Positions 18,698 to 64,000 of a DNA stretch of 64,000 bases are shown piece by piece. Within the stretch, counting starts at the first letter, position 1; each line of letters starts with the position of its first letter. The DNA is from Branchiostoma lanceolatum. Its lineage: Eukaryota > Chordata > Leptocardii > Amphioxiformes > Branchiostomatidae. The position numbers were made by a program, and so were the translations under genes. Where the stretch lies: the NCBI RefSeq assembly GCF_035083965.1, contig NC_089735.1:15002501-15066500 (forward strand), given 5' to 3'. Under the pieces are notes generated by a model that was given only the letters and a program-made list of their open reading frames with translations, had not been told where the DNA came from and searched no databases.

Positions 18698-19739
18698 AGT
18701 CAATTCCATATTAGTAGTATTACTGTGTGGGTGTTTGTTGCTTTTTGTTCTTACATTTGCAAAACTTTTGTTACCATCTAAGAGAGATAAGTAACTGTTT
18801 AGAACAATTACCAACATTTAGTTGATGTTCTAAATAGTTTCTGCTGTGCTCCAACATGTCAGACAAATTTCTAACACTGCACATGTTATTTGTATTATTT
18901 TCAAAACTGTTGCAACTTAGATCAGTTGCTTGAGTAAATTTTTTTGGGCGTATCTTACTACCTGGATGTCTAACTTTCATCAACGTATGATGCAAATGGT
19001 GACACATCACATTAGATGCTTCTTAATCAAGAGATTTTTGTGCAATTATTTTCAAAACATTTCCAAAATAACATAGATAAGTTTAAACATGGAATTGACT
19101 CTAAGCATGTGTATATATGTTCTGAAATATTATGTATTCGAGTGCATTTTTTCTCATTTTTTGTATGCTGATTATGTCACAGGTTATGTTAATTAGATCG
19201 ATAGGTACAAGTTTCAAATTGAGTATCCATTGGAGCATTTTATTAATAAATGTCCTGCCTACAGAAACAAATTTTCTATTTTACAACAACCACAATTTTG
19301 TGGATTAAACTTAAACAATGTTGTCTCAAATGTAAACACTTACAGCTCTGCCTATTTGTGAAATTATTCAGAAATACAATTGTATGTCCTTATAATATAC
19401 ATGTAAAACTAGTTCAAAGGAATGTAGAAATAATGATACTTAGACAGTAGCTAAAGTTTCCATTCGGCCTGCTGTATAAACCATGAATATATAAAAATGA
19501 GTACATACAGGTAGACAGGTCTTTATATTTGGTTGAAACACACCTGTTATACAGTGTTAGAAGTTTGGAAACATCTGTGAGTACATGTAAGACTGTTATC
19601 AAGATTGTTTTTAGACTTACCAGCTAACCCTAATTCTAACAGTATAAAGTTAGTAGAATACAAACTGATTTATAGACCAACTGAACAGGTAATGGCGAAA
19701 TATCTTAGCAACAAAATATCCTGATTCTGTAATCCAATT
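18698..19739. other. 3' flank of the transposase-like gene
   Basis: AT-rich sequence with no coding signal. An aataaa hexamer at about 19245 follows the stop codon by some 550 bp and is a candidate polyadenylation signal for the upstream gene. The 5' edge of the LINE at 19740 is not sharply visible. Confidence 0.4.
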
Positions 19740-23108: not shown

Positions 23109-23925
23109 CGTGTGAGCCTACTCATCTGTCGTACCGACAGGAGAATCCATCCATCATATTCAGATTGAGAGTTAACTGGAATGTCTAACACAATAGAAAG
23201 ATGGGACTTACCCAAATTTCAAATTAAACTGAGCATAAAGGAGTGAGCAATTAACAAATTCTGTGAAATCATGTTATGCAGATAGGACAGGTGACTCGAT
23301 GAGCAAGTTGCAGAAAGTTTATGGCACTCCATCCCTTGACAGACAGGGGATGCCATAAACTTTCTGTAACTCATGACCACATGCTTTATGAGTCACATGT
23401 TCTACATGTACATCTGCATAAAGTGACGTCACAGAAGCGGTGGACTGCCCTTTCCTTGACAACTTCTAGATCTGTTCAGTCAAAAATTTGGGTAAGACCC
23501 ATTTTTCTGTGTCGGATATCACAGCTTAATCTTGCTTCACAGGCAATGATATTCTACCACCATAGATGAAATTTCAAGCAAAGTCGTTACTTATTTGTTG
23601 TAAAGACAGCAGTAAAATCACACCAGGTACAGGCAAGTGCATTGCAGCTCTCTTGATACCACTAATGAAGAATCACTGTTGTGGTAAAAGAACTTTGATA
23701 TCAGTAATGAGGAATAAGTTATCATCAAGAAAAAATGAATCTGCGACAGTCTCTGTTTTACAGTCACTGTGATAAAACTTACCGATAGTTCACTATTTAG
23801 TAATCTAAGACCATTTCTGCTGCAAAATTATTTACATATCATGGTAAATTACATTGTAAATGTAAGAATATAATTGATACAGCTGTGCACTGAATTAGTA
23901 ACCTTTCACAATTGAGGAAGAAAAT
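23109..23925. other. Spacer between two LINE remnants
   Basis: Near 23310-23385 there is a short inverted repeat: tttatggcactccatccc against ggggatgccataaacttt. No coding exon was recognised. Confidence 0.4.
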
Positions 23926-30718: not shown

Positions 30719-33700
30719 CTTGCCGGTTGCAAAAACATAAGTGACAGTTAATCAACAAGTGAGTCTTCTTCGAAAAGATACGATGAAAGTTTCGAAAGAT
30801 ATAATGATGAAATCAGATGGTATCGAATATTAAGCGAATCAACTAATATCAAGGTTTCTACCCTGGCTAAATTGGTGTTTTGAATTTCCATTGTTTTCTT
30901 ATCAATGAATTAAGAAAGAACTGTAGTTGTACTGAATTAGTAAATATCAAGATGTGCGAACGTGAGTTAGTAGCTTAGATCATTATACACAATGTAAAAC
31001 ATAGTTTTATTGCAGTGGTATGTACCAAAGTGCTGTATTTTCTCTTATAGAAAATAATATTAGGGGCAATAGAATTTGATGACGTCATCCATACGGTCCA
31101 AAAATTATGTTAAGAATTCGTTCATGGCCAGCTATTAATATTCAGTAGAACTACAGTTCTCTCCAAATTGATTAATGGCCAAACAATAAATAGTGAAAAT
31201 GCCAGTTTAGCCAAGGTAGAAACCGAGAACTTGACAAAGTTTGGTAGTGCAACGTTTTTTCTTCTTCCAGAGATGAAAAGAACAAGTCTTGATAACGATA
31301 CCTTTTTGAGCATTGCGGGAACGCAGAACCAGGAGTGTGAGAGCGACCCCTAGCAGAACTCCTGCAACATGACAACCGACTGCAGCACCCGCTACTGTTC
31401 CGGCTCCGAAACAACTCCCATCTACCAAATTTAAAGCATGTGACCGTCCAGAATTGATCAAAATGCTATACATTCGTCCTCTTTATATTCAAGCAAGTGG
31501 CGGGTAAATGTAGAAATAATGTAACCTGTTTTTAATTAAGATAAAAGCGGGCATTCCTTTTAATGTTAGATAGACAGTTTTCAACAAAAGTGGATTACGT
31601 TTGCTGGTCTCACAATGACATTGATTTTCAAACGGGGACTTGAGATCGTAAATTACGATGGACTGATTTAAAACGGGCGAGAAGTCAACTTGACTTTAAT
31701 GTACACCTAGTATTCTATAGTAAACGTTTACAATACTATGCTATATATCTAACTTTTGTTTTCCTTTGAACATCCATCCGGATAAAGACATGAAGGAGAT
31801 TGGCCACGTACCATCGAAACATGCATATGAATACGACTGCAGAACAAAGGAATGTCAAAAAATGTATACCTGGCAAATGATGCGTATTATCTTGGCCTGT
31901 AGTAGCTTTAGTGGTTGTCAGTTCTACATTGAATAAGCAAAGACGTGGTTATTATGTTATCAAATGCAAAAACCCACTGCTTTTTGAGGATTGATATAGA
32001 AAAGCCAATACGAGGGCGAGTCAAAAATTAATGTAGTGATTTTATAACTGTCAGTGTCATTATCTATACTTTATTACACATTTTACATCTGTATGCCTAT
32101 ACTTAGCCCTGTAGGGCATCACTTACTCTCTCACACTCACTCTATCCCATAGCTTTAGTCAGCTGTAGGGTATGGATGTACAATGAAGGTTATCGATCAT
32201 AGAACAAGCTCATGCTTTTAATTGAATGAACTGAAATTTGGCAAAAAGGTAAAGACACATATCTTTTTGAGACTGACATATCTCAATTTGTTGTTCAGAT
32301 TTTTAGGAGCGACTGAATTGATTTCAAGGTGACCACCCCTTGGAAGTCCGTTAGAAGCAAGGAACATAATCTATTTGGTATTTCTAGTTAGTTCATGCAC
32401 ACAACAACAATATCTGCCAAACCTCCACTCGACTGTCGTTCCTGCGTGGCTACTGATGTGAGTCCATCTGAAAACAAAGTTTTGAAAAACCTTTTAATTT
32501 CTGTACGGCTTCTTGACTTCTATCATTAACAGAAAACTACAATGTTATGGATTCGACAGCAGTGCAGTTGAATGGATGGGCAGCTACCTTCCGAAACGCC
32601 TACAATGTGTGAACTTCAATGGCTCCAACTCTTCTTTCAAGGAAATGATAGATGGAGTTCCTCAAGGAAGCTGTCTCGGACCTCTTCTTTTTAGCATATT
32701 CTCAAATGATTTCCCGCTAGTCACAACAGAAGCTACCTCAGTTATGTTCGCTGATGACACATCTGGCTATACAAGTACATGTGCACCGTCTATCTCAACA
32801 ATCACATCCACCTTGCAGAAGGAGCTGGATCACATAAGTGACTGGGTTCTAATGAACAGGCTATTCCTCAACACATCCAAAACAAAGTCAATGGCAGTTG
32901 AAAGTAACCCCAAAATTAAAAAAAAAGAATCCCGTACTCACCTTATACTCGAACGGCCAAGTTATCCACCAAGGTAAAGGAAACTAAACTCCTTGTTAGT
33001 ACTCTTGATGAGTGCCTGACTTGGGACAGCCATACAGAAGTAACGGCAAGGAAAATGGCCTGCTCATTGGGAATGATAAAGAAATGTGCCACCTACCTGG
33101 ACTCTTCACTGCTTAAGCTCCTAGCAGAATCCCTCACACTACCACACATTGATTACTGCTCACCAGTTCGGTCCACCACTTCACAGAAGAACATTGAACT
33201 ACTACAAGTCATGCAAAACAAAGCGGCACGCCTGGTGCTACACCGTGATTACAGGACCTCAGTACAACACCTGCATGCATAGCTTTCATTGCAGCCTGTT
33301 AAACAAAGGCTTCAAGTTAACACTGTCTCCCAGGTACAGCGTATCCTTTCCTCACACCAAAGTTATCTACAAACAGTTGTGTCCTGTATCCCACAACCAC
33401 AGCTACAATACACGCCACGCCAGCAGAGACACGTACAGTCTGACGAAGCCCAAAACAAACGCACTGAAGAAGACGTTCGTATATAGATCTATATCAATGT
33501 GGAATAGCTTACCACATGGAGTTGAATCGGCAGCAAAGTGTAGATTTAGACAAAAATTGATAGAGTGATAGAGCACATGTGTAGACAGGAGTGGAGTTGT
33601 TAAGGCACATGCGATAATATACAGGAGTGGTAAGGCACATGTGTGAATGTAATATGTGCTAATGTAAGATGTAAATACCTGTATCAATGTAGTTTGTTAT

Positions 33701-36700
33701 ATGTACGTTTGTTTTATTACTCCAGGAAGATTAGCTTCTTACTTGTTGTACTTTTTTGAAAGCTAATGGAGCGAATAAAGTATCCAAGTATCCAAGTATG
33801 TCTAATTATGTCCACATCTACTTAACTTCCAAATGCTGCAAGAATGAAATCCCCATCATTTACCATCATGGAGTTATAGTATTTCCCATTGATTATGCTA
33901 ATTAGGTACTCATTTGCATAACCGATATCTATTGGATGAGGGCTTACCGTGCAATGTGAGCAGGTATGTGCCGGTGTCCGTGCCGTACCCGTTGTCCGCC
34001 ACACAGCGGTACTCTCCGGCATCAGACAGCACGGCCCGGGGGATGACCAGCTGGTACCCTTCGTAAAACGTCGCTCCACCGGGTAGAGTAGCTCCGTCCA
34101 CTCTACGGTAGGAAAATTAAGACAAAGGATCAAACAGAACAGTGTAAAACATACTTCTACTACACGAGCAAGACAATATGTTTTCCAGTACAAGTTCTTA
34201 AAATATTAGAGGTAGAGCTTATAGTCTTCAACCTCTTTGGTCAATGAAGCTATAAAGTAAGCAAGAACTAAGTGATGATAATGTTAGTGCGCCTCTTCCT
34301 CTGTGTATATGGTGACATAAGGCCTGGCCGGTTCCTATGACCACCTTATATATCAGCTCGTTCGTGTCGCTCACTCGGTGGTATATTCGGTGGTTATAGG
34401 AATAGAGCACACGCTAGGTTAAATAAACTTCTAGCAGGGACAACGGGCTTAGTTTCAGACAATTTCTCCCACAGCAAGGGATTACGGAGCTACATGTATT
34501 TTAAGGACTTCATTTACAAACATTATACATTTGAATTATGCCTGTACCTTGTCCAGGTGTACGTGGATACCGGGAAGCTGCCTGATTGACAGGTCAGAGT
34601 GACGTCTTCCTGTACGTTTGCTATGAGGGGCAGCTGGGCGATCGTAACTCGGGGCAAAACTGCAATAAAGATGAATATAAAGTTAACTCGGCTATTGTTT
34701 GTAAAGCTATCTATAACTATGGACAATGGAAATTAGCTTCCATAGCAGGCTCTATTGGCCTTATAACGAGAATGACTGGTAGGACGAAATGACTGGTAAA
34801 ACCAAGGAGGTTAAGTACAGAAGGTGTAAGGACAGAATTGGCTTTCACTTGTACCTCTTTGGTAAAACACATGGCTGACAAAGGTATGGGGTTTGGTGTT
34901 TATTTACCGACAACAGTCAGGTTTGTGTCCACGGAAGAAGCGACACCTCCTCCGGGAAAGATTGGGTCGACTTTACATCGGAAGGTGCCAGTATCCGGCT
35001 GGGCTGTCTCCTGGATGGCTATAGATGTCGAGTCTGGTAGAAAACTTACCCTCCCTGTTAAACCGAGCTCTGCCAGCCTATTGGTGTCTTCACTTATTGT
35101 AGAGCTGGGGATGTAAACTAGGAAGGGTGCTCCTGGTGTACCGTCGTCGTTCAGCTTGTACCAACTGACAGTATACACGGTTAGTGGTACCGTAGACACA
35201 AAACTGCAGCTGAGGTTGGCTGTCGCCGTCCGGAAAACGTCGACATTACCGGAGTTTGTGACCGTTACTACTGGGTTCTGGGCACCTGTCGATAAAACGA
35301 GAATGTTATAGTAGATTTCATAGATATTCTCATAAACCACTCAGATATTGGCTGAACCGAGCCTCCTAAGCTTCGAAGACCTTGCAATTGTCTATAAGAC
35401 TACAGTAATTTGCTACGTATGATGGAACGTCTTGGTCGCCATCATTTCATGACATATAAGTCTCTGTTTATGATACTGTAATTCCAAATTGGTAGATAAC
35501 TGGAATTTCATACTTGTGGCATTTGGAAGTTATGTGAAGGTGAACAGGGTTTAATATGAATCATGTCAACTAGGGTCTAATTTGAATAATGGATCAGAAA
35601 ATGCTTAAAACTTTATACTTAACCAAACTTCTGCCAAACGGGTGGGGAGAATGATCAGCTGATATAATTTATGAAAATGATGACCTTATTTGAATGATAA
35701 ATGAGAAACACTGATGAAAAGTCAGTCGAAAAGGTTAAAGCCATTGGCTGAAGGTATGAGGTCGTGGAACTCTAGTTATGCCTTATAATTGTGATTTCAA
35801 CTGACGATACTAAACTTTTCTGAGACCGTGCCTAGTGGTACATGCCCCTGCCTGTAGTCCATTGACAGTGTGGTTTTAACCTTTAACCTGAGTGAACTGC
35901 TTTGTGGTGATTTATTTAGGGAGGGACTTGAGTCTAAAGATACCGCACTTCATATCCTATCCAACAACAACCCTTGTGTTTTTTCATGACAAGTTGATAA
36001 TTGTCTACATACACTGTTGTTGGACACCACATATTTGTAGCGTTACCTCTGGTTGCCAAGCACTAGACATAGTAGCCATTTCAATTGTAATTTGTATTCA
36101 CAGTGACAGCCATGTCAATATTTAACCAGGCACCCTGTTCAGAACTTGTTTACCAATGGCACAGTGCATAAAAATGCCCAGAAAGAACACAATATCCTAA
36201 CAAATGGCCTAAAAAGTAACTAAGGCAACGGCAAGTAAATTATATAGATAACAACAAAATTTCCCGTCCGCAGATGGTCATCATGACGAGAAAGCACCAA
36301 AATGGGAAAATATGTCGTGTTGTAGCCTTGATTGTACTTGTAGAAGTGACACTAGCGGGGTGACCATGACTGTAGTTGTAAAGTGAAACTAGTTCGGTGC
36401 CCCTTTCTGTATTTTTTGAAAACAGGAATAAAAGACTTGCTGGCAGTGATACCAAATTTTGTCCTTTTTAATTCTTGTTACCGGTACTACGTTTATAGTG
36501 TTTCTTTTTAAAATGTATCCATCTTGTTGTCTTTTCAACCAATCTTGTTGTTTTTCTACCCGCTGGCATTAAATTTGGAGACTGCAGTGGACTAATTACT
36601 ACATGCCGATTTCTGAAAGAAAAAAAATCTTGTACGCCAAGTGCTATTACTAGCTAAGAAGGTTACGCCTACCTGACTTGGTTACAATCAAAAGACAGCC

Positions 36701-39984: not shown

Positions 39985-40602
39985 TTTCTTGTTTTTCCCT
40001 CTACAAAGAAAACGTTTCTGTCAGCAAGAATATCATTCTGTATACAGGAATTCCTGTATTAGCACAAACAAGAATCCCTGTTTTACGCCAAACAAGAATT
40101 GCATCCAATATTTTTTTTCTTAAGTGAACTTAAACCAAGAAAGTTCAAGAAAATAATTCTAGTAAAATCAAATTTTCAAGAAAAAATAACTTATGGGAAG
40201 AATCTGTAAGAATACAAATTTGACGAAACAAAAGCAAATCTTTCTAAACATAAGATAACAAGAAAGATAAGAAAAAATAAGAAAAAAGATAGTGTAGAAA
40301 CACACCATTTTTTCTTAGGCCTGAGCAGAAATCCTTTACTGATTCATTCCACAATCATCACCTTTAAAAATTAAATGTTTGATTTAGACGTCTACGAAAC
40401 ATGATACATTCCAAACAATAGTTCGGATAAGGTAGAACACGGGCAGCAGATTTCAAGTTAACTTATTCATATCTTTCCCTAACGATTCAACATTGACCAT
40501 GTTGCTGGTATCCAGAAACCCTTCATATTTTTTCTTGGATCTTATGGGGGATTCCCACACAATGTTTTGTGCCCTAAAGCCGAGGCCTAGCTAATACATT
40601 GA
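39985..40602. other. AT-rich 3' flank of the LDLa/F5-8C gene
   Basis: The sequence is A-rich on the plus strand, with repeated aagaatt and caagaaa words. No gene was recognised. It follows the minus-strand stop at 40603-40605, so it probably includes that gene's 3' UTR. Confidence 0.4.
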
Positions 40603-40700
40603 TTAGAAAGCCAGGCGGTAGAAAATCTGACTGCACAGTGCAGCGGCTGTTATCCAAATAACGGCCTGGTCCTTGGATCCATGGCTCTCTGTGTAGAGCC
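40603..40700 (-). CDS. Last exon: GPI-anchor-like signal and stop
   Basis: AG acceptor at 40701-40702, phase 1. It encodes 31 residues: a small polar segment (GSKDQ) followed by about 18 hydrophobic residues and TAA, with no basic cytoplasmic tail. The open frame and phase match the exon ending at 51112. The A1 repeat of the inserted element begins 150 bp upstream in gene direction. Confidence 0.7.
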
Positions 40701-43700
40701 CTGTAAGGAAACAAAGAAGAAAAAATAAATAGTAACAGCATTTATTTAGCATTGTAATAAAAACGACAACCTTTATTGGTAAGTTATAAATATACTACAC
40801 CAGGCCTTCTTGAGGGGTTAATAAATGAATATGATTTGTTAACATGTGACCTATTTAACATGCACAGCCATTGGTCAGACGGTGTGACGTCATACCCCCT
40901 ATGTAAATAAGGTATAGTGCCCTATAGTACACTTTCATGTGAGCTCCGTGTGCTCCACACGTCGACCCTTACGCTCCCTTCCCCGTGAACGCCACGCAGA
41001 AACATGCCGATTGTCGACAACGTCTTCGGCGGGAGGTGTCTGAGTTGAAGCCCGAAGCGGTTTGTTTGGCTACACAGCACTTGAATGTTTCCCATAAGGT
41101 TGGGCGTATAGTAGCGTTTTGTGGCGTGGCGCTATGCTTTGTTGTTTCTCGTTTTAAGTGGTTCTTGTTGCGTTTTGTGAGAGAATTCTTTTGTCCGGGC
41201 AGTTTTTGTTAACGGTAAATGTTTTGTCCCGGTTTCCGTTTTTTCTGGATGTGTTTTGTGGTCTTTTTATTTGTGGTTGTGGTCATTTTGAGGTAAGTTT
41301 TAGGCCGTGGTTTACGTTCGGTCGTCGTAGAGCGTGGTCGTCTTTCATTTTCAGTGGCCGTGTAGAATCCACTTCAATCCTCTTCGGAGATGGGCGAGAG
41401 GCGCTTTTTTCCAGTTTGGGTGTGTGTTTTGCTTGTACGTTTGTATTTTTTGTATGTTATTTGTGTGTTTTTTGGTGACCCTTCGAGCCAGATTTGAGGA
41501 TTGAGGGACAGCAGTGGTGGCCGAGTCGCTGGGTAGCAAGATGGCTACCTCGAGAAAAGTTTCTTTCAGGGATAGAATCCAGTGACATCCTTTGCGGTGG
41601 AAGGCCAGGGATACCTACAACCAACGTGGATGAGCGACGCAGACTTAGAGGTTGGCTGTTTTGATGTTTTTTCTTCCGTTTTTGGTGACCGTTGCAGGCT
41701 GGAGCCGTGCATTTTTGTTTAGATTTGGTGCCCAAATCTCAGAACAGCAAGATTGCCATTTTGGGATTGTTTTTTGTGAGGGTTAGAATCTGTTGCCATC
41801 CGTCGCTTTTAAAAGCAAGGGAGGTACGCAGTTTACGTTGTTGAGTGTTGCAGTTTGAGAGTGTGGACGTTTTCATGTTATTTTTGACTCTGCTCTAAAA
41901 ATGACATGTTTATCCCCATTTTTGCGAGGCAGGGTTTTCGTCTGTCTCCTCGTGGTGGGGTTTGCTCTAGCTCAGTGCCGGGACTGTCCACCAAGACGGG
42001 ATTTATTCCTGTATCGTCGTGTTGCAGCATCCCCCTGCCTTGGGCTTAAGCGGATTCGGGCGGCAGTTCCCCAGGTTACAGGTTACCGACATGTGCATTT
42101 TTTTTTTTTTTATTCTCATGCCTTACTCGTTTCCGTCACCGGTACGTGCGTAAGATTGTGGTGTTTTGTTTTCTGTCAGTGGTGCGACAGCTTGTGACGG
42201 TTGTGAGGCATGAAAGGCCTGGGCTGCCCATGTTATCGTGGCTTGCTCACCTTTGGGGACCAGGCAGGGGGGAAAAAGAGCGTGTGTGGCTTTGTACGGG
42301 TGGAGATGTGTTGTTGGTTAATCGAGTTGTGTGAACGGTTGTCGGGGGTATGTTTGGTTGATCGTGTTTTGACCTGATCCCGGCCACGTTCTAATGATCT
42401 GCATTATGTGTACAGGAAAGGTGGATCTTGACGTTCTTTACAACTGACACGAACCCTACCACCAAGATGCAGCGTGCGGAGGCACATGGGCAGCCCGCGG
42501 GCCTGGTTCGACCTCCTCTGTTGCCCTCGTGGATCCGCGGACAACCCTAGGGACTGACGCTCTCCACGTAAACGTGAGTTTGTTTTACTTGCGGAGCTTT
42601 TGGTTCCAGTTTGCTTACCTTTTTTTGTTGTTGCTTCATTTGCCGTCCATTTCTTCATTCGTGCTCGTCTCAGGGAATTCTGAGAGAGTGCCTCCAGCGG
42701 GAGAAAGTGCCGTGTGAGAGGTACGGGCTGGAGGAAGGCCGTGAGAGACAGTGAGGGTCCTGGAGGGACAGGCCACGAGCGCAAGTAAAAATGTGTGTTT
42801 TAACCGAGAGACAGTCCTGGAGGGACAGGCCACGAGCTCAAGTAAAATGTGTGTTTAACCGAGAGACAGTCCTGGAGGGACAGGCCACGAGCTCAAGTAA
42901 AATGCGTGTTTTAACCGAGAGACAGTGAGGGTCCTGGAGGGACAGGCCACGAGCTCAAATAAAATGTGTGTTTTAACCGAGAGACAGTCCTGGAGGGACA
43001 GGCCACGAGCTCAAGTAAAATGTGTGTTTTAACCGAGAGACAGTGAGGGTCCTGGAGGGACAGGCTACGAGCTCAAGTAAAAATGTGTGGTTTAACCGAG
43101 AGCCGGAGAGAATCCCGAGGGGACAGGCTACGAGCTCAAGTCACCATTCTTGTGACTTCATGGTGAAGGTCCCAGGCGGGGCACCGTGGGGTGCCGCGGG
43201 AAAGCTACGAGCTCAAGTCACCATTTGGTGGCTTCACTGAGAAAGTCCCGGGCGATGCACCGTCGGGCCCCGCGGGCAGACTACAGGCTCAATTGCAAGT
43301 CACTATTTTTTTTTGTGACTTAATTGACAGGCTACCGGCGGTCCAGTCGTAGCGCCTTCATTTTACTCTTTTGGGAAGAGGTCTTGAAAGGAGAGTGAAG
43401 CATGGGTTGGCTTCGTTACACCCCACCCTGCTTTTACACAGGCAGGGATAGGACATAAACTGAGGGAAACCGCGTGTGACAGAAGCCTTGCATAAGCCCA
43501 TCGGCAATTTAAAGACGACGTGTGTTGAAATTGCTCTTGCAGTTGACTTTAAGAGGGCTGGGTAAGATGAACGACTACGCAGTGGTTTGCGTCACACACA
43601 AGTGAAGATGGCAGGTCCGGGAACGTGGCCTGGTAGACCACCCTCTGCCTCCGCTCAGTCTTGAAGCTACGGATCCAGGGTATCACGGCCGGGCGAACTC

Positions 43701-46700
43701 CGATGTCTAGCAAGGACCGAATAGCATTTATGTGGTCAACCTTGTCAAATGCTTTAGACAGGTCGGTGGTAACAAGTGTACAGACTGACTTTGGCATTGA
43801 CATGGATTTGCACAGGAAGTCAACCAAGTTGACCAGGGCGTGTGTCGTCGATCTTTGTTTCCTGCCGCAAAATTTGCGGGGATCTAGTCTTTTAAATATA
43901 TTTTGTCCTATCCAATCTGCCACGAAGCGTTCACTGAGTTTAGACGACTTTGGAATAAGTGATATGGGTCGGAGTTCGTCGACGTTTGGTTGACTAGACG
44001 TTGACAGGGGAACTGCGTTAGCTTCCCTTCAGTGACTAGAAACGATGCCTTACCTGACTGAATGGGTTGTGTAGGTCACAGAGAGGCGTGCTCAGTTCAC
44101 ATGCGAAGTCCTGTAGAATACAGGCAGGTATGTTGTCGGGACCGGGACTCTTGTAGTTGTTGGTGGGCCGCAAGTTTGAGTAAACATTCAAGACTTGGAG
44201 GTCAGGTAAAGCCTTACTGTGGTCAGTGGATACTAAAGAGCAAAAGGCATTAGGTTTGTCACAAGCCTTGAATATAGAGTTTGTCATGTCTAAAAGGCAG
44301 TGGGTTGTGGATCTACCCTTGATACCTCCAAATTGTTGGGGATCAATGTGAGGAAGGATGTCGGACATAGCCCACTGGCAGATGAAATGTTCTGCTACTT
44401 TGCTCAACAGTGAAGTTAACGAAATAGGGCGGAGGTCGTTAATGGACGGGGGCTTGGTCTTCGGGACAGGAACAACGGTGGCGTTTTTCCATTCGTCTGG
44501 CACAGTGCCTAGCTGGAGTGAATAATTGAGTATATCTGCAAGTGGTACACTCAGTTCGTACGCGAACTCTCTGATCAGCTTACCTGGAATGCCATCAGGG
44601 CCAGCTGCCTTACGAGTCTTGACTTTTTGCAGCTTCGCGTACACGTCCCAGGGACTCACGGTGGGCGGTGGAAGGGATGGCAAATAGGCAGGTAACGACG
44701 ACAAGTCCAACGGTGGCAGGGAGGTGATCACTGATGCCAGTGATTTGTTTATTGCGTTAGCAGTGTTATATGTGTCACTGGGGTCCAGTTCGTCGATGTG
44801 GGTGACAGGTTCCGAACGGGTACAGTTGGCCATAATGTGTGGTTGATTCACTTGCAGGGAGTCGACAGTGCTCACCAAGTGGTCGATCAATAACTCACTG
44901 TGTGGGGAGTCAGGGGTTGAGTAGGCGGCGCAAACCGCTAGACAGGATAAGTTGCGGGGGAGTCGACGGGGCCGTACCTTCACCCAGGTACACTCCAACT
45001 CCTCAGGAACGGGGATGTGCAGGACGCTATAGGGTATGTCATTCCTGACATAGACTGCAACTCCACCTCCCGATCGTCCTGCACGTGCCCGGGAGTACGT
45101 CGTGTAGCCTTGGATGTCAGTCATCTCAGCTGGCGATTGCTTACGGAACCATGTCTCAGAAACAATGGCAACGCCGGTATCAAGGTCTCGAAGGCGTATT
45201 TCGAATTCCTCAAGTTTATTGCACAGCGATCGGGCGTTGATGAGGAACAGTGAGGGTAGATTGTAGGTATGTCTTTGTTTTGGCTCTGGGTGAGCGGCAG
45301 GTGGATGCTTGTTGAGTGTCTGAGACGCAACAATCCTTGTCAAAACACGGTTTGTTGTACCACTTGTAGTGCAAAGACGGTTTTCAGTCAGGAACGATTG
45401 GAATTCATCCAGCTGGTTCGTTGTAAACAAATCATTGCCCATCAAGGCCGGTCGGAGAATGTTAGCTGATTTGCATGTGTTTACTTGTATGTGGCACGAC
45501 TCGAGCATGGACGCCGAGCATTTACATGGGATGGGTCTATTGCCAATAATGGGGTGGATCTTACGTTGGAAGTGTATTCTTGCCTTCTTCCCCCTTGGCC
45601 TGCTTCTCCATTTCTAGACTCCCAGGCGAAGAAGGTTCCTTTGAGGTTTGGGTCGGTCGGCAGGGCTGCACGTTTCAGTCCTCGCAAGAACTTCAGGGAG
45701 TACGACAGCGACGCCTGCGTCCACGCCGTAGCTATGGCAGTGTGGTCGGTTTGATCGATACCGGGGGCGTGGATCAAGTTGGCCTTTTTGTTCATGTCTC
45801 ACATGGCCTTGAGACCGTTGTACCATGACCTAGGTTTGCCCTTCTTGCGCCCCTCTCTCTTTGAACCTTGTCCCTGTAAAACTTAGACGTGACAGTGAGA
45901 CTCCCAGACGTGAAAGTTCTCTGTCTGCTTTATCAGGTGATTGATTCTGGGTGTTTTGCAGGGTTTGTCACTGTGGTGTGGTTTGACAGTTTTAGTTGGG
46001 GCAGAACTTGGCGATGGCACAGGTCAGGGGGGCTATAGAAGGCGTCAGCCTTTTCGTCAGTCGTGGTTGCAGTGAAAACTTCTCTCCAAGGTTGGGTAGT
46101 AGTCTATCTCCCAAAGTTGCTCAGATTAGGCTCGTGAATGTTACGAGTAAGCATCTTTCTACAGTCATTTTGTTTAAGCTTCACTTGAGCTTTCCAGGAT
46201 ACGGCAGTGGTTACTGAGTTCAATCGGTGGGAGGATTTCGGTAGTTTTTTAGCACTTTTTCATGGTTTTGTCACGATAAGATTAAGGTTGGCGCTTCCCC
46301 TGGTGCTGTTCCGAACAACTTGAGAGATCCTGAGAGAGAGCACGGTCTAAGAGGATGTTGGGGATATACATCTGATTGAAGTCCCCTAGATGGCCGATAC
46401 CAATGTTCTAAAAAGCTGTACGCATTTGATCCGGAAATGAAATGAGGTGTTCTATGAGTTAATCGTCGTGCGGTGACGGCGGCGGTGAGTACGAGGTGCG
46501 TACGGTGATCGACGAAAACTGACGAGTCATGCGTTGTGGTCGCACGTACACCCACAGGTATTCCAGCTGTTCTGGGACAGTGATTTCAGATATGACACGG
46601 GACGGTATGCCGTCGCGCACCTACACTGCTGCCCCACCGCCGCGACGATCTGTGCGACATTTAGAGTACACGGGGTATCTCTCGTCTGACGTTCTTGTGG

Positions 46701-49700
46701 CGTGGAAAGAGAAAACCAGGACCCAGAGATCGCAGCAATGTCCACGTTATTGCTCGATAGAACGGCCTGGAATCCGTCAGTTTTGTTGGCAACAGATCGT
46801 GGATTGGTAAGAAGGAATGTCGGCACTGCATACACCACAGTTTTGATGTTCGCTAAACTTAAGTTTGCGCGGGATAACAGAGTCTGTTGTTCACGCTGGA
46901 GTGGGTATTTGCATGTGGCTGAGAGGGGGTGATTCCACTCCTGGCTGCTGTTGAGGGAAAGATTTTTGCAGAGGACGTTGGACAATCTCCACATGAACGA
47001 GCTAACTGCTGGATGACTTCGGGGAAAAGGAAAGTACAACACCTACGGCTAGCACAGATGAGACAGGTGACACAGGAGAGAACTATGGTAAGATATCGTG
47101 GAAGGGAAGTGAAGTAAAGGCGGCAGTTTGTCTAGAGTTTAGGGAAAGCCAGTTTGAGGCTGCTGGAGGTACAGACTCGCGAGATCGCGTCTCAGTGCAA
47201 TGCTCCGGACGCTGGGTTGGTATGGTGTGTTAAAGGGCAAGATTATCCGCAAACTTGAAAGTGTTAGTCCCACCACTTGTAAGTCAGTGTAACGAGTACT
47301 CCTGCAGCTGGCATTGGGTGTTTTAGGCGGAGTGGGTAAACCAGGGGTAGCAAATTTGTTTTCTCTACAAGGGGAAGGCTTACTCGTGAAGTCTTTGGGA
47401 AGCCTTCTGAGAGAGTATGACATGGTTGGCAAGATTTTATGGAAGTTTTGGTTTCGACGACGTCCAGATGTCGGTAAAATGCACTCGTAGCGAGCTGGGC
47501 TGTGAAAGGTCGGAGTTGGAGCCCGTAAGGTTTTGTACATTTGGGAATGGTTTTATTTCGGGGGAAAAGGGAACAGGGCGGCCAGAAGGGCCTTAAGTGG
47601 CGTCAGATTACTATTGGGTGTTCAGAGAACTGGTCCGTCCAGGTATACACTGCTCGTATAATATCCAGTCCTGTCATGGTGAGGGTCAGGTTTGTTTGAC
47701 GGTCGCGACCGGGAACATTGTTGTTTCCTCTAGTTGATAGCAGTACTTGCTAAAAAGTTGCCCTGATCGGACGAGTATCTCAGTGAATGTCTCAGAGTTC
47801 TACGCGGTGAGCGGATGGGTAGCAGTTCCAGTTGGGAGTAGGCGGTGGCGTAGGAGGTATATTCCACACGCAGGGTGGCGGTTGTTCGACTCCCTCGATC
47901 TTTTTCACTTATCCACGTATTTGGCTGTCTGAAGCGGCATTTTCGAGAACGTGATGAGTGTGGGAGGTATACACCGTAATAGGGTCGTTATTGCAGAGAT
48001 GAAGGGGTTATACCTTCCTGAGGAAGTATAAGCGCTGTTTTGTTTGGTACGCTTTGAGTCCTGGTAAGAGTTTTCTTAGAGTTCAGCCTGGGGGATAACG
48101 CCTATCACCCTCGTAATGTTCATTCGTTGAATGTTCCCCTTTTTCTGGGAGCAAATCGATAGTGTGTGACATGAGTCTTCCTGAATTGGATATGCAACAT
48201 TTTGTTTGTCTTTGGGCGTAGTCTCATGTTGTTAAGGGGCTGTGGAATGTTGGGAGGACTGAATTTGGGGGTTTGTCAGGTCAAGTCATCCACTAAATTT
48301 TCAGCCTTAAGAGCCAGCGGAGCGCGTGGCTCTGGTAATTTTGGCTGGGAAAGTCAGGGGTATAGGTGGAGTCGGAATATGTTCCATGGTAATAGTACCG
48401 GACAGTCCAGCTTGAGTGGGTAAGGTCTAAGGAAGGCTTTAATCCATCTGGTCATGAAGGGCGCGGTTCAAGTTCAAGCAGGCGTTGGGTATACGGCGCA
48501 GTCTCTGACACGGTTAAACCTTTTTTTGGTAAGTCATTGTAACAAGGGAACTGCACTCGTCCGGAACTAAGACTTTGTCGGAATAAGGTATTAGGAATTA
48601 TGCGGTACAAACTGTTAGAAAGGCATCGGAGAGGGAAGATTAGTTTTTCTTAGGTTTGGGATGGTAAGAGAGGGGTTTAGGTAAGGAAAGGCTGGTGGTA
48701 GGATGGATGCGCGATGAGGAAGGGGTAGGACAAAAGTGAGAGTGGCATGAGAGTGGGCATCTTATGAGAGAGGGGTAAGATAAGGGAGGGGTGATAAAGA
48801 TAAGAATAAGGGAGATGAGCAAGGGATGATTGGGAAGAGTTAAGATGAGAGAGGGGGAGGTGAGAAGGCACCAAGTATCTTAGTTTGTTCTGATGTGGAG
48901 AATAAAACGGAAGGAACGGGCTCAACAGCCAGAGACGGCGAAAAGCGAAAGACGACGATTCTCCGCATCACTCACACAGGAGGACCTAGGGCTACGCATG
49001 ATAAATAGGATACTATTTAACATGCACAGCCATTGGTCAGACGGTGTGACGTCATACCCCCTATGTAAATAAGGTATAGTGCCCTATAGTACACTTTCAT
49101 GTGAGCTCCGGGTCCTCCGGCCACGTCTGGAGCCTGAAGCGTACCCGCCCGCCCTCCCCGGACATGTTTCTGCTTGGCTAGAGGTATGCGCCCGCTTTAG
49201 GGCGGTCGCCTCAGCACATAGGTGCCTTTAGGCTTCAGACGACGATTCTCCGCATCACTCACACAGGAGGACCTAGGGCTACGCATGATAAATAGGATAC
49301 TGTGCTTAACCCAGTGGGGCAAACATGTACAATAGAGGTCTTCATTCCATTCCAATAAGTGGTAAAATTGTCAACCTTTGTAAGAATTTGGATATTTTCG
49401 AATGTAGTTTTAATCAGTGATGCATAACATTATTGATCTTTGTACAAAATGTACTATACAATGTATATATGAATGTTAACTTTTAACCTTACTGATTGTG
49501 TTTGTAACAAAATGACTGTCTTTACCCAGCATTGCACGAAATGGCATCGGATCCTGACGTATCCGGGAAGGAGAAACGGGATCCGGAACCTAAGATCCGT
49601 AAGAATCCGGACGGATACGGGGGCCGTATTGTACTTAAACAACTCAAATTTACCTACATTTACTACATAATTATGGAAGTGGTACACTGATGTGGTATAC

Positions 49701-52700
49701 ACTTGCAAATACAAGTTAATTCAGGTAAATTTGAGTTGTTTTAGTACAATGCGGCCCCCGTATCCGTCTAGATTCTTACGGATCTGAGGTTCCGAATCCC
49801 GTTTCACCTGTCCGGATATGTCAGGATCCGAGGCCATTTCGTGCAGTGAAGGCTTGCTCTTAGTAATAGAGCAGGAGAAAATCATGAAGTTAATATGATT
49901 ACTAGGGACAATATCTGGGATACGATATCCCCCGGGCAATGTGCTGTCACAGGGCTCGAAATATTGGGTGCATGTGCACCTTTGATCACCCAAAATTGGA
50001 GCTTTGTCAGTGAGTGTATGTGTGAGGTGTATTTGTGCGTGTGCATTGCACGAAATGGCATGTGCACTTTTTTTGAAGATTTGCAGATAGAATAGAAGGT
50101 TAAAGTTCTACTTATCTATGTTGTGCACCCAATATTCTTTCTTCTTACTTTTTAGGGTTGGCACATCATTGCACCTATTCTCAAAAATGAATTTTAAGCC
50201 CTGTGTCCGTAGTTTATTTTATTTCAAAGGTAAAATCGTATTGGTGTGTACATGAAAGCTAAATTCTTTAAAAAGGGCATGTTGCGTCGCGGTGGCGCAG
50301 TGGCAGGATGTTTGGTCTAGAACCCAGAGGTCCTGCGCTGGAATCCGGGGTCCACTGATTTGTCCCGTTGACGTTGGGTCCTTTTAAAAGGCACTTAACA
50401 CGGCTTTCCATACTTCAATCAAGTGAAAGTGATTACCAGGTAACTTCGGTCAGGGACGTCCCTCGGATAGGACGTTGAATGGAGGTTCCGTGCTTACGGC
50501 GAGGCACACCTCGAGCACGTAAAAGAACCCAACACACTTATGGAAAAAAATTAGGGGTCCTTCCCGGTGTGAGTGGATCAAATAAATCTGTACGGATATG
50601 TAACTTGTACTCTTGGAAACCTGGTGTGTTACGCCTCGAGGCGGTTTACCGGGTATGCAATACAAACAAAGGGAAAATCAAAGTAAATATTGAACATACA
50701 TAGTGTTTCAGTGATAAAAATGGTTAGAGAAAACGTCCCTGCAAACTTGACTGCTAGCCCTAATTTACTTGAATGGCGGGATGTTTTAAAGTCGAAGTGT
50801 TTAGCTTTAGGTTGTTATTGAGTAACATGTTTCAAACCTCTTTTCTGAGGAAAGTTTGATGATTATTAGACTCCTGTAAAGACATTTTTGCGGTGGTTTA
50901 ATGTCGGGTCTACGCATTGACAGCTTCACCGCGAACTTTTAAAAAACCACCGTGTAAAGGTTTGTTTCCATTAATTTACAGTATTTTATTCTAACTAAAG
51001 TGCTATTGTGAACTAAAGACCAACGCGAATACTCAATTTTCTCCTAATCGAAAAATTAAATCACCACGAACTTGAATGCATTTACAGTAACTAAAGGAGA
51101 ATTATAAGTACCTGTTTGATCTTCGAACGGCCCTTCATCACTTGTTGGCTCTTCGGTCAGGCCGATGGTCAGCGTGGTGGTGGCTTGAGTGGACATGACG
51201 TCCACGTTGCCACACCCCTGCTCGTCCTCCCCTGAGGCACAGTCCGGGTATCCGTCACAGATCAGATGACTTTGCACGCAGTTCGCTAGGTCCGGGAAGC
51301 CGGGAAGGCCGCAGTAGAACGTCGGGCAATCATCAACTGTCGTAGGTACGACGCCTTCACAGCCCTGCTCGTCCTCTTCCTCCATGCAGTCCGCACCACC
51401 GTCGCAGCCGAACGCGTCAGGAACGCACGAAGCGTTACCGTAGACGGACGCGCAGTTGTAGCTGCAGGAGCCCCACATGCGTTCCAGGGCATCTTCAACT
51501 GTACCAACAGATTTGAGTTCATTATATACATGACCGTGCAAGACCTTGCTAGCTGCCGCAATTCTTACAATCCATTCTGGTCAACACCATTCTACGGCAA
51601 AGTGACCTTTGGGGGGGGGGGCATGAATGAATGAATTAAACCTTTATAAACTTCAACGTCTTGTGCTTTAATCTCAAAATAACTTTAGACGAATTAAGAT
51701 AAGATCTTACACAATGGCAATGACGTTACTCCTCCCCCGGCCCCTCCCACAAACATTAACAGGTTGACCAAGTATCTACATTACATAAACAACATACGGA
51801 TATCAATAATTCAGAAACTACGCTTAATAGTCAAACACATTTAATCACCACACCTGCATTATAAACTGATTCCCAAAGCTGCTAGATGGCTTTTAGGTTT
51901 GCCAAAGATAGTGTTAACTTTCTGGATTAATAACTGATTCAAGTAAATTTGAATCCTTCTCATGGATACACTTTGTGTACACGTATTGCTTTCATAATAA
52001 ACAAGAGATATCGTACATATCATTTAGGAATTTTCAATGTTTCCATACTACAGAGGTCATGCAATGGCGCCGGCTCGGATTAAGTCTTAATCAGAAGGAA
52101 AAGCTTGACTTTTAATGCACTTCACTTTTTAAGCTTTAAAAAAGTGACATTGTGTAGTCCTGTAATCTATATACAACTCTATGCAAAACGAGACAATGTT
52201 TTACATTCCTGACACATAATACTATCATCGTTACCATTACATTGTATATTGTTTTAGAGCATTGGAATGCACATTATTAGATCGATTATCTCCAGTGATT
52301 CGAGTTGTAGATTAGTTCTTTGAAATCGTTAGATACTAGAAGTAGCCAATTGTTATGTATCTACAAATTGCCATACATTGCACCCGTTACAACTGTCGCT
52401 CAATAAAGTTCTTCTTCTATGTAAGCTTATGAAAGGTGCAATATGTGAACAGTTTGAATTTCAACATTTCAAGTAACTGTTGATATGAAACACGTTGTCA
52501 TGGACAAATGCACACATTGTGGAGACAATATGCAGTTATATTTCCACGTGTTTCAAAAAGAGAGAAACACTATTAGGTGTATAGATTAACATTAGTATGT
52601 AGCGTTTTGATTCATTGTATTAAGCATTAGAATGTAGTATCTTGCTTCAATGATTGGCATTTTAACCAATTAACTCAGCTGTCCTGTGGTTACTAGTATA

Positions 52701-59620: not shown

Positions 59621-62600
59621 TTATATATGTCCAATTAACTTTCCCCATTTCCCAGCATGTTTTTCAGTTTTGCCTATTCTTCTAGAAATGATGCTTTCTA
59701 ATTTGTAAAAGTAGGAAAGATAAGAAATAAAAGATTCTAGCTTTAGAGACCACTGACGATTTTTAAAGATAAAGTGTTTTCCTAACAGAATGACCATGTT
59801 TGACAGGGCTGGACACCTCTCATTTAGATCTCCAAAAATGACACTAAAACGACTAAGTTGTAGGGGGTATCCAGTATGATGGAGAAACCAATCTTCTAGT
59901 TGTCGCCAGAAATGTGTGACTATTCTACAATCCCAGAATAAATGTATAGCCGTCTCTTCTTCATCTTTACAATAACTACATAAATAAGAGTCTACCAACC
60001 CCCACTTATACAGTATTCTATTCGTAGTTAAGAATTTAAATAACAGTTTATATTGAAAAATACATAAATGGGAGTCAATCGAGATTCTGTATGTTAAACT
60101 GTACACTTTTTTCCATGCTACAAATGTATTAAAATAATCCTCCCATGATTGTTGTATTTTTATTTATGATTCCCATAGCCTGGCCTCGTACATGAAAAAT
60201 GAGTTCAAGTATTTATTGATTTTTAGATGCTGAAGCCAGGTTATGTTTGTACAAACCGGAACACAAACCTTTAATTCTGGTGACACCTGTCGTAGTAATT
60301 TTTTCCAAGAGTACGGAATGGCTGAAATAATTTGGTTGAACTTAAGCTCCGAACGGGTGTCCCCAAATTTAAGTACAAAGTTTTCAAAAGATAAAGGGTT
60401 ATTATCCGAGTCTATAATATCGTTCACAAAAATAACGCCTCTGTTGTAAAGAGCCGTTGAAAATAAGGGTTTTCCTGATATACGTATTCCTGAATTTAGG
60501 CAGAGAAGCTGTTGTTTTACTTCAAGTGCACACTCTGGAGGACGTAGTTGGAACTTTAGCCAAGCTTGTAGGACTTGTCTAAAGAATTGACTGATTGGAG
60601 CTTTCTCTTTCATCAATATTTCTAAATCATTCGATGTGAGTTGTGAAAAGGGAAATACATTGGTTGTAAACAAAGGACTGGAGCAAAGAAACACTTTGGA
60701 ACAAAACCATTTTTCATTATGATATAGTTTGGGCACCCAAGAGGCCTTCATGGTAAGATCGGTGGCCCGCAAGTTTCTAAGCTTAAGACCACCGTGTTCG
60801 TATAGATTATATAATGTTTTTCTTTTTACACGTTCTAGCCCATCTCCCCAAAGAAACTTGAATATTTTTTTGTCATGCCTCTCGAAAAAAGGAGGAGGTG
60901 GGGAAGGCAGGGATTGAAACAAATATATATACTGTGGTACTATTAAAGAGTTTATCAGGGTGACTTTACCTAGAAGAGAAAGTAGTTTCCCTTTCCAGGG
61001 ATTTAGGCGCTTATCTATCTTTGCTTCTTTTCTATCAAAATGTGGATCGCTAAGATGTCTACCGGACCGTCAGTCCACTGTGTTGGTAGTGAGCAAGGTA
61101 CAAAAAAGTTGGTGTCCCTTAGCGAACCTATACGTAATATTCTACACTTATCAAAATTAGGCACTAAACCCGACACTAATGAAAGCATCTCTAAGTCTTT
61201 AACGAGTGCATACAAGGAGCCAAGCTTCGGAACTAGGGGGAACTTTGAGTCGTCTGCAAACTGTAGGAGCTTAGTTTCCAGACCATATGTTGTTAAACCC
61301 GTTATTGCCGTATTACTTCTTATTTTGATGGCTAGTATCTCTACTCCTAAAACGAATAAATATGACGAGATTGGACATCCTTGTCTTACTCCACGGTGCA
61401 GGGGGAATTCTTCAGAAACATATCCACTATTGATAATTTTACTACATATATCTTTATACAACACTTTTATCCAGGTAATAAATGAATCCCCAAAGCCTAA
61501 ATAGCCCAATGCCTTAACAACAAAGTCTTGCCTAATTTTATCGAACGCCTTTTCAAAATCCGCACAGAATATCAATCCTGGCATTTCATTTCTGTCGTAG
61601 TATTCTATTATTTCTAAAAGTCTCCGTATAGTGTCGCTAATAGATCTACCTTTCATGAAACCTGTCTGATCGTAAGAAACCAGGTTTGAAATGACGCTCT
61701 TCATGCGAAGGGCCAAGCATTTAGATAGTATCCGAGTATCGCAATTTAATAGGGTCACAGGGCGCCAATTTTTAATGTAAGATGGGTCGTTGTCCTTTCC
61801 CGTGGAGTCCTGCTTAAGTAGTAAAGTGATAAGTCCCATTTTTTGTGTTTCAGAAAGGTGACCAACCTGGAACGAATGATTAAATGAGGCCAACAGGGGT
61901 TGTTTCATACAATGAAAGAAGAACTTATAAAATTCTATAGGAAAGCCATCTAGACCGGGCGACTTCCCGGGAGAAAAGGACTCGATAGATGTTTTTAATT
62001 CCCTTTCTGTAACTAACCCTTCACAACTATCTAACTGACTTGGGGATAAGGATAACGGGGGTGGATCTGGAAAGAAAGATACAAATGCATCACTGTCTAG
62101 AGACGTTGGGGGATCTTTGAAGGTATACAGGTCGGCATAAAATTTAGTCTGATGTCCTATAACCTCCTCGGGGTCAAGAACCGAGGTACCATCTGGCTTT
62201 ACAAATTTTGTCATGTTTTTTTCTTGTACGTCCTCTGCCATTCAAATTCATAAAAAAATTCGTGCATTTTTCACCCTTTTCCATCCACTTTGCTCTTTTG
62301 TTCATAATTAGATTATTTGCCTTTGTTTGGTAAAATATTTCCAATTCCTGTTTTTTACTCTGCAAGTTGTCGAAAATGTCATTATCCGGAGATGTGTCTA
62401 AAACTTCTTGCAGGTTGTTGATCTCACCAATGAGTGATCCTTCTGTTTTTCTATTTTGTTTCCTTCTCCAGGATGAAAACTTGATTATGTGACCGCGGAC
62501 GGCACATTTGAAGGCTTCCCATACAATGTGAGGGTTTGCCGTTTCTTTATTGAATAAGAAAAATTCCGTGATGAAAATTAATGTTTCTTTCACAAAAATG

Positions 62601-63382
62601 GAGTCATTTAATAAAGCCTGGTCAAATTTCCAAAAGCCCGGCCCACGCGGTGTTTCAGATATAATCAAATAAAGCCCAATCAAACAATGGTCTGATCTAA
62701 AACTATCCTCAATGGTAACTTTGTCTATAAAGGAAGTAAGCGAGAACGATGTCAAAAAATAATCAATGCGACTAGCTTGAAGGCGACGTCTCCAGGTGTA
62801 GCGTATGGCTGTTGGGTGTTTGTGTCTGTAGATATCTATCAAATCAATGTTGGTGCAAAGTGAGTTAATGGCTTGAAGGGCATTTGGATGATAATTAGAT
62901 ATACGGTGTCCAGCTCTGTCCATACTAGAATCTAATACTGTGTTGAAATCCCCCACTATTATTGAACATAAACCGGATGCTGTAAAAGGTTGTAAATTGT
63001 TTTCGAGGTCAGCAAAGAAGGATGGATCATCAATATTGGGGGCATAGATATTTCCTAAACAAAAATGAAACAAGTCTACAGAGAGTTCCAATAGCATCCA
63101 TCTTCCTAAATTGTCACTCATTGTTTGATGAACCGTAAAGGGAGCATTTTCTTTGAATAAAATCATTAGACCTCTGCTGCTACTTGAACCATGGTTAAAG
63201 ACAATTTGGCCCCCCCAATCTGATTTCCATCCCTCTTCATTTGCAGGTGTGGAATGAGTCTCCTGTAAGCAGTAAATATTATAGGATTTGTCCTTTAAGC
63301 ATAGAAATAATTGATTGCGCTTTCTGTGGTCACCCAGTCCATTACAGTTATAACTGCATATATTAAGTTTTGGCAACACCAT
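59621..63382 (-). pseudogene. L1/Tx1-like LINE ORF2, frameshifted
   Basis: Four minus-strand frames make one ORF2-like protein. 63382-62174 is the endonuclease (ICSYNCNGLG, LQETHS, GDFNTVLD, RIDYFL, SDHCLIG). 62241-61015 is the reverse transcriptase (GLDGFPIEFYK, DFEKAFDKI, GVRQGCPIS, and the catalytic QFADDSK). 60922-60164 and 60106-59621 are the C-terminal region, the last with the CSYC...IHLFWDC Cys-rich motif typical of L1/Tx1 elements. Frame changes near 62200, 60950 and 60130 disable it. Motif content is otherwise complete, so decay is moderate. Confidence 0.88.
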
Positions 63383-64000
63383 GGGGTATATGGAGGATAC
63401 GAAAAGTTGTGGAATGGTCTAAAAAGAAAGGCTGTCCACAGAAAGCCAAACCTACACAAGGCAAATCTAATACACAGGAGATAACATAATTTCGTAGCAG
63501 GTAATCGGGGTCACTTACACTGAACGGGAACATAGGAAACAAATCAAAACATAATCTGTAATCTATGATGATGTACAACAACGTGCCATGCAACAACAAT
63601 GAAAGTAATAAATAATAAGTAGCAACTAAAGTAAAACAATAGTTGATCAAATGCAAACACAATATGAAACGTAAATTCAAACACAAAAACACAAGGTTGG
63701 ATAGTTCACAAGAAACAGTGAAATAAGAAAACATATAGTTTCTTATGCCCTGAAGATTCTTGTGGTCTGGCGGCATTCCAGCTTGTGTCTTAGCTCCATG
63801 AATAACAATTACTATTTCACTTTTCCGCAATAAGTGAGTCAAAATCGATTTAGAAAAACAAAGGCAAAGTAAATAAATATTGTTGTTATCAACATAGAGG
63901 AAAAAAAAATACTAGTAGTAGATAAGTTGATTGATACCAACAATATAGTCAGGCAAGCAAAATTATAACTCATATCACCCCAAGTCATAATGATAACATA
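63383..64000. other. Upstream part of the LINE or flank
   Basis: A 159-codon minus frame (63363-63842) is hydrophobic and AT-driven, with no ORF1 signature. It may be LINE 5' sequence. The window ends inside this region. Confidence 0.35.

Follow-up and report, generated by a model that had tools for sequence, protein, structure and literature searches.

A 64,000-nucleotide stretch of the genome of the amphioxus Branchiostoma lanceolatum (assembly GCF_035083965.1, contig NC_089735.1, positions 15,002,501 to 15,066,500), hereafter the window, contains an 8.45-kb element bounded by repeats at positions 40851-49301. Its blocks follow the order A1, interior, B1, A2, X, B2. The left terminal repeat, A1 (40851-40948, plus strand), is identical at 98 of 98 positions to an internal copy, A2 (49013-49110, plus strand). 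The right terminal repeat, B2 (49237-49301, plus strand), ends the element with GGATACT and is identical at 65 of 65 positions to an internal copy, B1 (48950-49014, plus strand). The A1/A2 match can be prolonged to 106 bp at 98% identity. Because within-window blastn gives expectation values (E) of 1e-47 for the A repeats and 7e-30 for the B repeats at such lengths, these matches are not due to chance; searching the window by blastn with A and B turned up no additional copy of either. B1 and A2 overlap by the dinucleotide CT (49013-49014), and A2 is separated from B2 by X, a 126-bp segment (49111-49236, plus strand) characterized by alignment and folding. An initial annotation of the locus had described both pairs of identical split repeats and the CT overlap, and both descriptions held.

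The same CT is present at the joint between the left flank and A1 and at the joint between B2 and the right flank. Thus, the flanks joined with a single CT read gtgac-ct-gtgctt, which matches the empty site that had been predicted, gtgacctgtgctt. The joined outer ends of the element likewise reproduce the internal B1/A2 junction, as the initial annotation had foreseen for a circular form, and this junction has the look of a recombinase site. No target duplication beyond the shared CT was seen when the flanks were compared at the offsets tried; the longest flank match, a 3-bp GTG lying 2 bases off the left boundary, was taken as chance. The shared CT as sole duplication agrees with VIPER and TATE, for which no target duplications are reported (PMC12278014).

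Arm matching places an inverted-repeat, recombinase-type site on the B1/A2 junction (48996-49025, no strand assigned), which reads GCATGATAAATA-GGATAC-TATTTAACATGC. Equivalent settings describe it as 13-bp arms matching at 12 of 13 positions around 4 bp or as 12-bp arms matching at 11 of 12 around the 6-bp GGATAC; a third gives 11-bp arms matching at 10 of 11 around the 8-bp spacer AGGATACT. Tyrosine recombinase sites typically consist of two inverted arms of 11-13 bp spaced 6-8 bp apart (PMC3212892). Across window positions 11001-64000 (53 kb), the junction is the sole match for 12-bp arms with at least 11 of 12 identities around 6 bp, and one of two matches for 11-bp arms with at least 10 of 11 identities around 8 bp, the other being at 39651. 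A looser palindrome scan of 52,900 centres found two sites that reach the junction score, the junction itself and one near 23333; this sole other site is a strong palindrome (23290-23385) directly after an open reading frame (ORF) of a long interspersed nuclear element (LINE). The outer ends of A and B are mutually inverted at 16 of 19 bases, or at 28 of 37 over wider arms; when A and B were resampled 5000 times from a Markov model, the 16/19 match was never attained. These inverted outer parts may be just the binding arms of a recombinase, possibly common to other members of the same group.

The split-repeat ground plan, with A1 equal to A2 and B1 equal to B2 in the order A1...B1-A2...B2, is that of the Ngaro, PAT and VIPER elements. 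We therefore consider it probable (roughly 0.8) that 40851-49301 is a large, non-autonomous, split-direct-repeat tyrosine-recombinase retrotransposon, in which non-coding DNA, minisatellites and LINE fragments in antisense have taken the place of the enzyme-coding interior. The anatomy, namely the repeats, the CT joints, the junction site, the span of G+T-rich sequence and the lack of recognised enzymes, supports well the class to which the initial annotation had assigned it.

The imperfectly inverted outer ends (28/37), with a short copy beside a long one, could also be read as a terminal-inverted-repeat or Helitron-like transposon, and A2-X-B2 does resemble a short, hairpin-rich element. This is very unlikely, because the inverted arms reach the left tip and stop 6 bases short of the right one, so that the spacer remains with one end. 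Such an offset is recombinase-like and would fit recombinase exchange better than a cut-and-paste, terminal-inverted-repeat transposon. The lack of a visible target duplication beyond CT also counts against such a transposon, as do the ends themselves, which are CT...CT rather than TC...CTRR or TG...CA. Helitrons and Helentrons have TC...CTRR ends or insert between A-T or T-T, whereas the ends found here are CTATTTAACA...ATAGGATACT, followed by GTGC. Long terminal repeat (LTR) retrotransposons and their large derivatives (LARDs) have TG...CA ends and a target duplication of 4-6 bp, as against CT...CT ends and a flank match of at most 3 bp in the offsets tried. Retrozymes and Penelope-like elements carry a hammerhead ribozyme in their terminal repeats; an Rfam search of 40000-50200 returned two matches at E ≤ 1, neither of them a ribozyme. 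One of these, a sub-threshold match to a bacterial small RNA family at 49103-49135, was taken as chance; the other, a sub-threshold match to a microRNA family, falls outside the element.

The interior begins with a 5' part (40949-43551, plus strand) that has no LINE matches, no recognised ORF and a G+T content of 59.5%. Within it lie two adjoining minisatellites (42756-43276, plus strand), one of a 62-bp unit in 6.5 copies (42756-43141) and one of a 76-bp unit in 2.0 copies (43127-43276); both had been noted in the initial annotation. The LINE fragments follow, and the 3' part (47043-48949, plus strand) holds no recognised coding matter, with 32% G and 16% C. G+T content is 57% in the element and 49-50% in the flanks, and the maximal G+T segment of positions 11001-64000 (41022-48898) nearly coincides with the span from A1 to B1. 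The LINE part has 56% G+T and the non-LINE parts 59-60%, and two further LINEs of the window, read in antisense, have 55% and 51%. The LINE pieces can thus be only a partial source of the bias, which leaves the 59-60% of the non-LINE parts over. This G+T-rich span bears on the possibility that the arrangement is an assembly or cloning artefact, or a chance segmental duplication. Such an origin could be entertained for a single raw sequence, but is extremely improbable when the G+T-rich stretch spans the interior and the only 12-6-12 recombinase-type site in 53 kb falls exactly on the B1/A2 joint.

To search for enzymes, we compared 55 of the 273 stop-free interior segments of at least 20 codons with Pfam, including all 53 of at least 60 codons, in a scan that could overlook short or strongly diverged remnants. 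None of these 55 ORFs matched gag, RNase H, tyrosine recombinase or methyltransferase. The sole matches above the Pfam cut-off, or backed by a second search, were to LINE endonuclease and reverse transcriptase (RT) on the minus strand. Sub-cut-off matches to TrmO_C (0.0063), Trm112p (0.056), CBP_BcsF (0.16), DUF3623 (0.19) and SnoaL_4 (0.22), and a sixth to a short-peptide family (E 0.4), were taken as chance. No tRNA genes were found. The view that the interior holds no recognisable Ngaro-type enzymes is thus sustained for the 55 ORFs. An autonomous Ngaro, PAT or VIPER element has its own tyrosine recombinase and an RT with RNase H plus gag, and these are missing from the recognised content; intact ends without recognised enzymes are what a non-autonomous derivative would have.

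An ordinary autonomous split-repeat element might instead have landed here and had its interior replaced in place, through LINE insertions and recombination, in which case the cargo never moved. The single copy examined is compatible with such a history. We nevertheless judge it highly improbable: none of the 55 ORFs shows any vestige of gag, RNase H or recombinase, the G+T skew spans the interior, and the repeat copies have diverged by less than 1.8% (95% upper bound, from 0 differences in 163 bp), which leaves little time for a wholesale loss of enzymes.

The LINE endonuclease and RT pieces in the interior are all on the minus strand, antisense to A. The first (43552-44200) is an RT piece of a second LINE lineage, recognised through an RVT_1 match above the Pfam cut-off (E = 2.7e-9) in a 159-residue ORF at 43552-44028; tblastn follows it to 44064, and its right edge was set beyond that point by eye. 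It is frameshifted relative to a 525-codon stop-free frame (44039-45613), which was defined from its ORF, Pfam and tblastn. This frame consists of the N-terminal half of a LINE endonuclease, an internal gap, the N-terminal part of an RT and then, as judged by eye, the start of the second-lineage RT piece in frame. Its endonuclease and RT matches in Pfam, each at E = 0.0025, are under the cut-offs, and we accepted them because the frame resembles the other LINE pieces in tblastn. The third piece (46420-47042) is a frameshifted endonuclease fragment of another LINE lineage, detected by tblastn at 46420-46701 and by eye over the rest, in which Pfam found no LINE domain. In tblastn the endonuclease fragment (46420-46701) is 47-49% identical to the 525-codon frame and the RT piece 36-37%; therefore, at least two LINE lineages are present. 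The endonuclease fragment and the second-lineage RT piece may be one LINE copy split by the 525-codon piece.

The initial annotation had counted at least three decayed LINE pieces on one strand. The shared strand was borne out and three stretches were found, although these may represent only two LINE copies. Decay does not hold for all of the cargo: the chance of an open frame of 525 codons in random sequence of that composition is P ~1e-10, so this piece is young or has been kept, rather than long dead. A profile built from the LINEs of the window, these pieces included, found no further LINE piece, other matches having E ≥ 0.76. A marginal plus-strand tblastn match of 30 residues of the 525-residue frame (48195-48284, E 0.009) was taken as chance, and a protein search with this frame in viral contigs gave 4 pattern matches, of which 0 were confirmed.

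The A repeat has features of a promoter. A1 contains ATTGG (an inverted CCAAT) at 40870, TGACGTCA at 40885, and TATA-like stretches at 40902-40926, which in A start 46, 35 and 25 bases short of its inner end. ATTGG, TGACGTCA and TATA-like sequence follow one another in the order of an RNA polymerase II promoter, and the replication model for this class needs A to end soon after the start of transcription. From these motifs we infer that A comprises a putative RNA polymerase II promoter and the first few transcribed bases. A scan for bacterial-type promoters and terminators was uninformative for an animal element, and a B-like stretch inside A was set aside as weak, since it was equalled in 31 of 1000 shuffles.

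X has no significant likeness to the long interior in local alignment or sensitive blastn. Its local alignment score once A is passed is 12.5, compared with a mean of 11.4 (standard deviation 2.1, maximum 18) in 200 shuffles, and sensitive blastn gave at best an inverted match of 16 bases (E 0.06). With the score inside the shuffle range, we rejected the idea that X is what a deletion left of the long interior; A2-X-B2 is thus no simply deleted version of the long unit. X folds on itself in a 21-pair stem (49124-49145 with 49221-49241), the final 5 bases of which are the start of B2. Folding of 48940-49310, which holds B1-A2-X-B2, is strong (z -7.2, with 0 of 100 shuffles as good), partly because of the inverted repeats in A and B. 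Positions 49090-49240 alone gave z -3.5, with 1 shuffle in 200 folding equally well.

These properties of A and X bear on a DNA-only alternative, in which a Crypton-like tyrosine-recombinase transposon inserted as a circle dimer, with an 8.16-kb long unit and a 0.29-kb short unit and no RNA step. The geometry of the recombination site and the CT joints fit this equally well, and non-autonomous Cryptons exist (PMC3212892). It is nonetheless unlikely, given that X lacks significant likeness to the long unit and the promoter-like motif order in A fits an RNA intermediate. In addition, Cryptons are described as having terminal direct repeats of 4-6 bp, or none in animals, and no long direct repeats (PMC3212892), as opposed to the 98- and 65-bp split repeats present here.

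If 40851-49301 is a split-repeat retrotransposon, its motifs suggest that transcription would begin near the inner end of A1, at a predicted 40930-40945 or thereabouts, and proceed rightwards across the interior, B1, A2 and X to enter B2. The RNA would presumably be copied by the RT of an autonomous relative. In the model for the class, the internal B1-A2 block, with both full ends, rebuilds the incomplete ends of the complementary DNA (cDNA) and closes a circle with a B-A junction, and the B1-A2 block found here could allow the same. The tyrosine recombinase of the relative would then insert the circle into chromosomal DNA by way of the junction site, without target duplication and with CT at every joint.

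Published elements provide close parallels for this plan. Split direct repeats arranged as A1-[ORFs]-B1A2B2 are the mark of Ngaro (PMC8547959) and are shared by PAT and VIPER (PMC4157794, PMC6681497, PMC9210276). Ngaro-like elements of zebrafish, sea urchin, fungi, Xenopus, Cafeteria and amphioxus have the A1-[interior]-B1A2B2 plan in common with the present element (PMC8547959, PMC9210276, PMC4157794), which differs from them in carrying LINE cargo and no recognised ORF for gag, RT-RNase H or recombinase. Placed in the same order as here, the repeats measure 173 bp (A) and 219 bp (B) in T. cruzi VIPER (PMC6681497) and 236 bp (A) and 152 bp (B) in Xenopus DIRS-53_XT (PMC9210276), those of Xenopus being larger than the 98 and 65 bp of the present element; in a VIPER copy of B. 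saltans the repeats are 83 and 57 bp long and differently ordered (PMC6681497). By these sizes, repeats of 98 and 65 bp are small, yet of the same kind. Within amphioxus, the VCBP2/5 locus holds a Ngaro-like element whose split direct repeats are distinct from others in that genome; it shares this repeat type with the element described here but, unlike it, has three ORFs, for gag, RT/RNase H and recombinase (PMC2632668). DIRS1-like elements also occur in amphioxus (PMC3266345). DIRS1-like elements in general are similar in that an internal region matches both ends (PMC6681497), and the ends here are also imperfectly inverted (28/37); DIRS1 repeats, however, are inverted while the exact repeats here are direct, and neither a methyltransferase nor a recombinase was found in the interior.

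Non-autonomous forms of such elements are already known, as shown by two cases. In Cafeteria, A-B units are found on their own, and their counterpart here would be A2-X-B2 (PMC8547959). SIRE, the non-autonomous partner of VIPER in Trypanosoma cruzi, is the A2...B2 part of that element (PMC6681497, PMC12278014). Like the present element it keeps end sequences only, but it is a few hundred bp long, whereas the amphioxus element retains A1, B1 and 8 kb of other DNA. The initial annotation had called a non-autonomous, cargo-loaded element of this class unusual, which is only partly right given SIRE (PMC6681497, PMC12278014). No exact-phrase match to names for non-autonomous DIRS or Ngaro elements was found, and no element of this build is described in the literature searched, the coverage of which leaves out most subscription journals.

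TOC1 of Chlamydomonas reinhardtii, from work by Day et al. in 1988, is reportedly a larger non-autonomous form, several kb long, that has split terminal repeats and an internal tandem array but lacks enzyme genes. It differs in its algal host and is not known to contain LINE fragments. It has been termed a retrotransposon-like element (PMC7722844), and the literature searched contained no description of its structure.

The identity of the repeats indicates that the insertion is young or that the repeats were equalised by gene conversion. We favour a young insertion, as the divergence of less than 1.8% suggests, and a young insertion would mean that the LINE cargo was probably aboard beforehand. 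Young ends that enclose an interior without enzyme remnants are most simply explained if the cargo travelled with the ends. The initial annotation had proposed a recent move in trans of an element already carrying dead LINE sequence; the low divergence makes such a move plausible, but there is one copy to judge from and the cargo is partly an open frame.

Several observations weigh against a mobile, split-repeat retrotransposon carrying this cargo. Co-movement of the cargo is deduced from a single copy, and gene conversion could have upheld the identity of the repeats. The window and scans of viral and prokaryote sequences yielded no relative, no second copy and no autonomous partner. In these scans, exact patterns for pieces of A, pieces of B and the junction gave 0 matches in viral contigs, as did the A tip in prokaryote genomes, results that carry little weight for an animal element. 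Spacings of 6 and 8 bp at the junction were tried only once the palindrome was known, and its best symmetric arms stand 4 bp apart. The window contains 5 occurrences of TGACGTCA (0.98 expected); 2 of these are the A copies and 3 lie outside A, so the motif is no proof of a promoter. AATAAA is absent from X and B2, the closest upstream occurrence being at 48901, before B1, and this counts against a simple 3' end there. Finally, G+T fractions in 2-kb segments range from 0.540 to 0.620 inside the element and from 0.441 to 0.543 outside it; the ranges touch, and composition alone therefore cannot set the ends base by base.

If the split-repeat retrotransposon reading is correct, this copy, which retains end signals only, shows that the cis sequences needed could be limited to A (98 bp), B (65 bp), the B-A junction and X, and the palindromic core of the junction predicts the binding arms and spacer of the recombinase. 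Elements of this class would then be able to carry 8 kb of foreign DNA, including coding sequence of another retrotransposon. Because the LINE pieces are antisense to A, a more speculative and decidedly unlikely idea is that the element is a mobile antisense unit. At each new insertion, the A promoter would drive an RNA that is the complement of LINE messages and that could set off silencing of LINEs by small RNAs; the host would keep the element, and a Ngaro-type relative would move it. Interest in the locus would rise if other copies shared the cargo or if the element yielded antisense small RNAs.

The surrounding sequence contains further mobile elements, repeats and probable host exons. 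The LINE ORF that precedes the palindrome near 23333 (19725-23108) stays open for 1127 codons; it matches endonuclease and RT and, at its C-terminus, a C2H2 finger just under the cut-off. Three ORFs of a second long LINE (59621-63418, minus strand) match endonuclease, RT and zf-RVT, and a lone RT fragment lies at 32498-32977 (plus strand; RVT_1, E 1.1e-10). The 587-codon ORF at 15113-16876 has weak matches to Mutator/MULE transposases under the cut-offs and overlaps a 24-bp minisatellite. Probable host exons encode an immunoglobulin V-set domain (34900-35340, minus strand), for which a comparison with solved structures gave no match at E 0.001, and low-density lipoprotein receptor class A repeats (51056-51580, minus strand). 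At 228 bp to the right of the element, an inverted repeat with 135-nt arms at 89% identity (49530-49848) is probably a hairpin transposon; it matches the microRNA family MIR7807 below threshold (44.5 bits, cut-off 90). From its first base, the window is occupied by a satellite array (1-10738) of 25.4 copies of a 422-bp unit with 96% matches.

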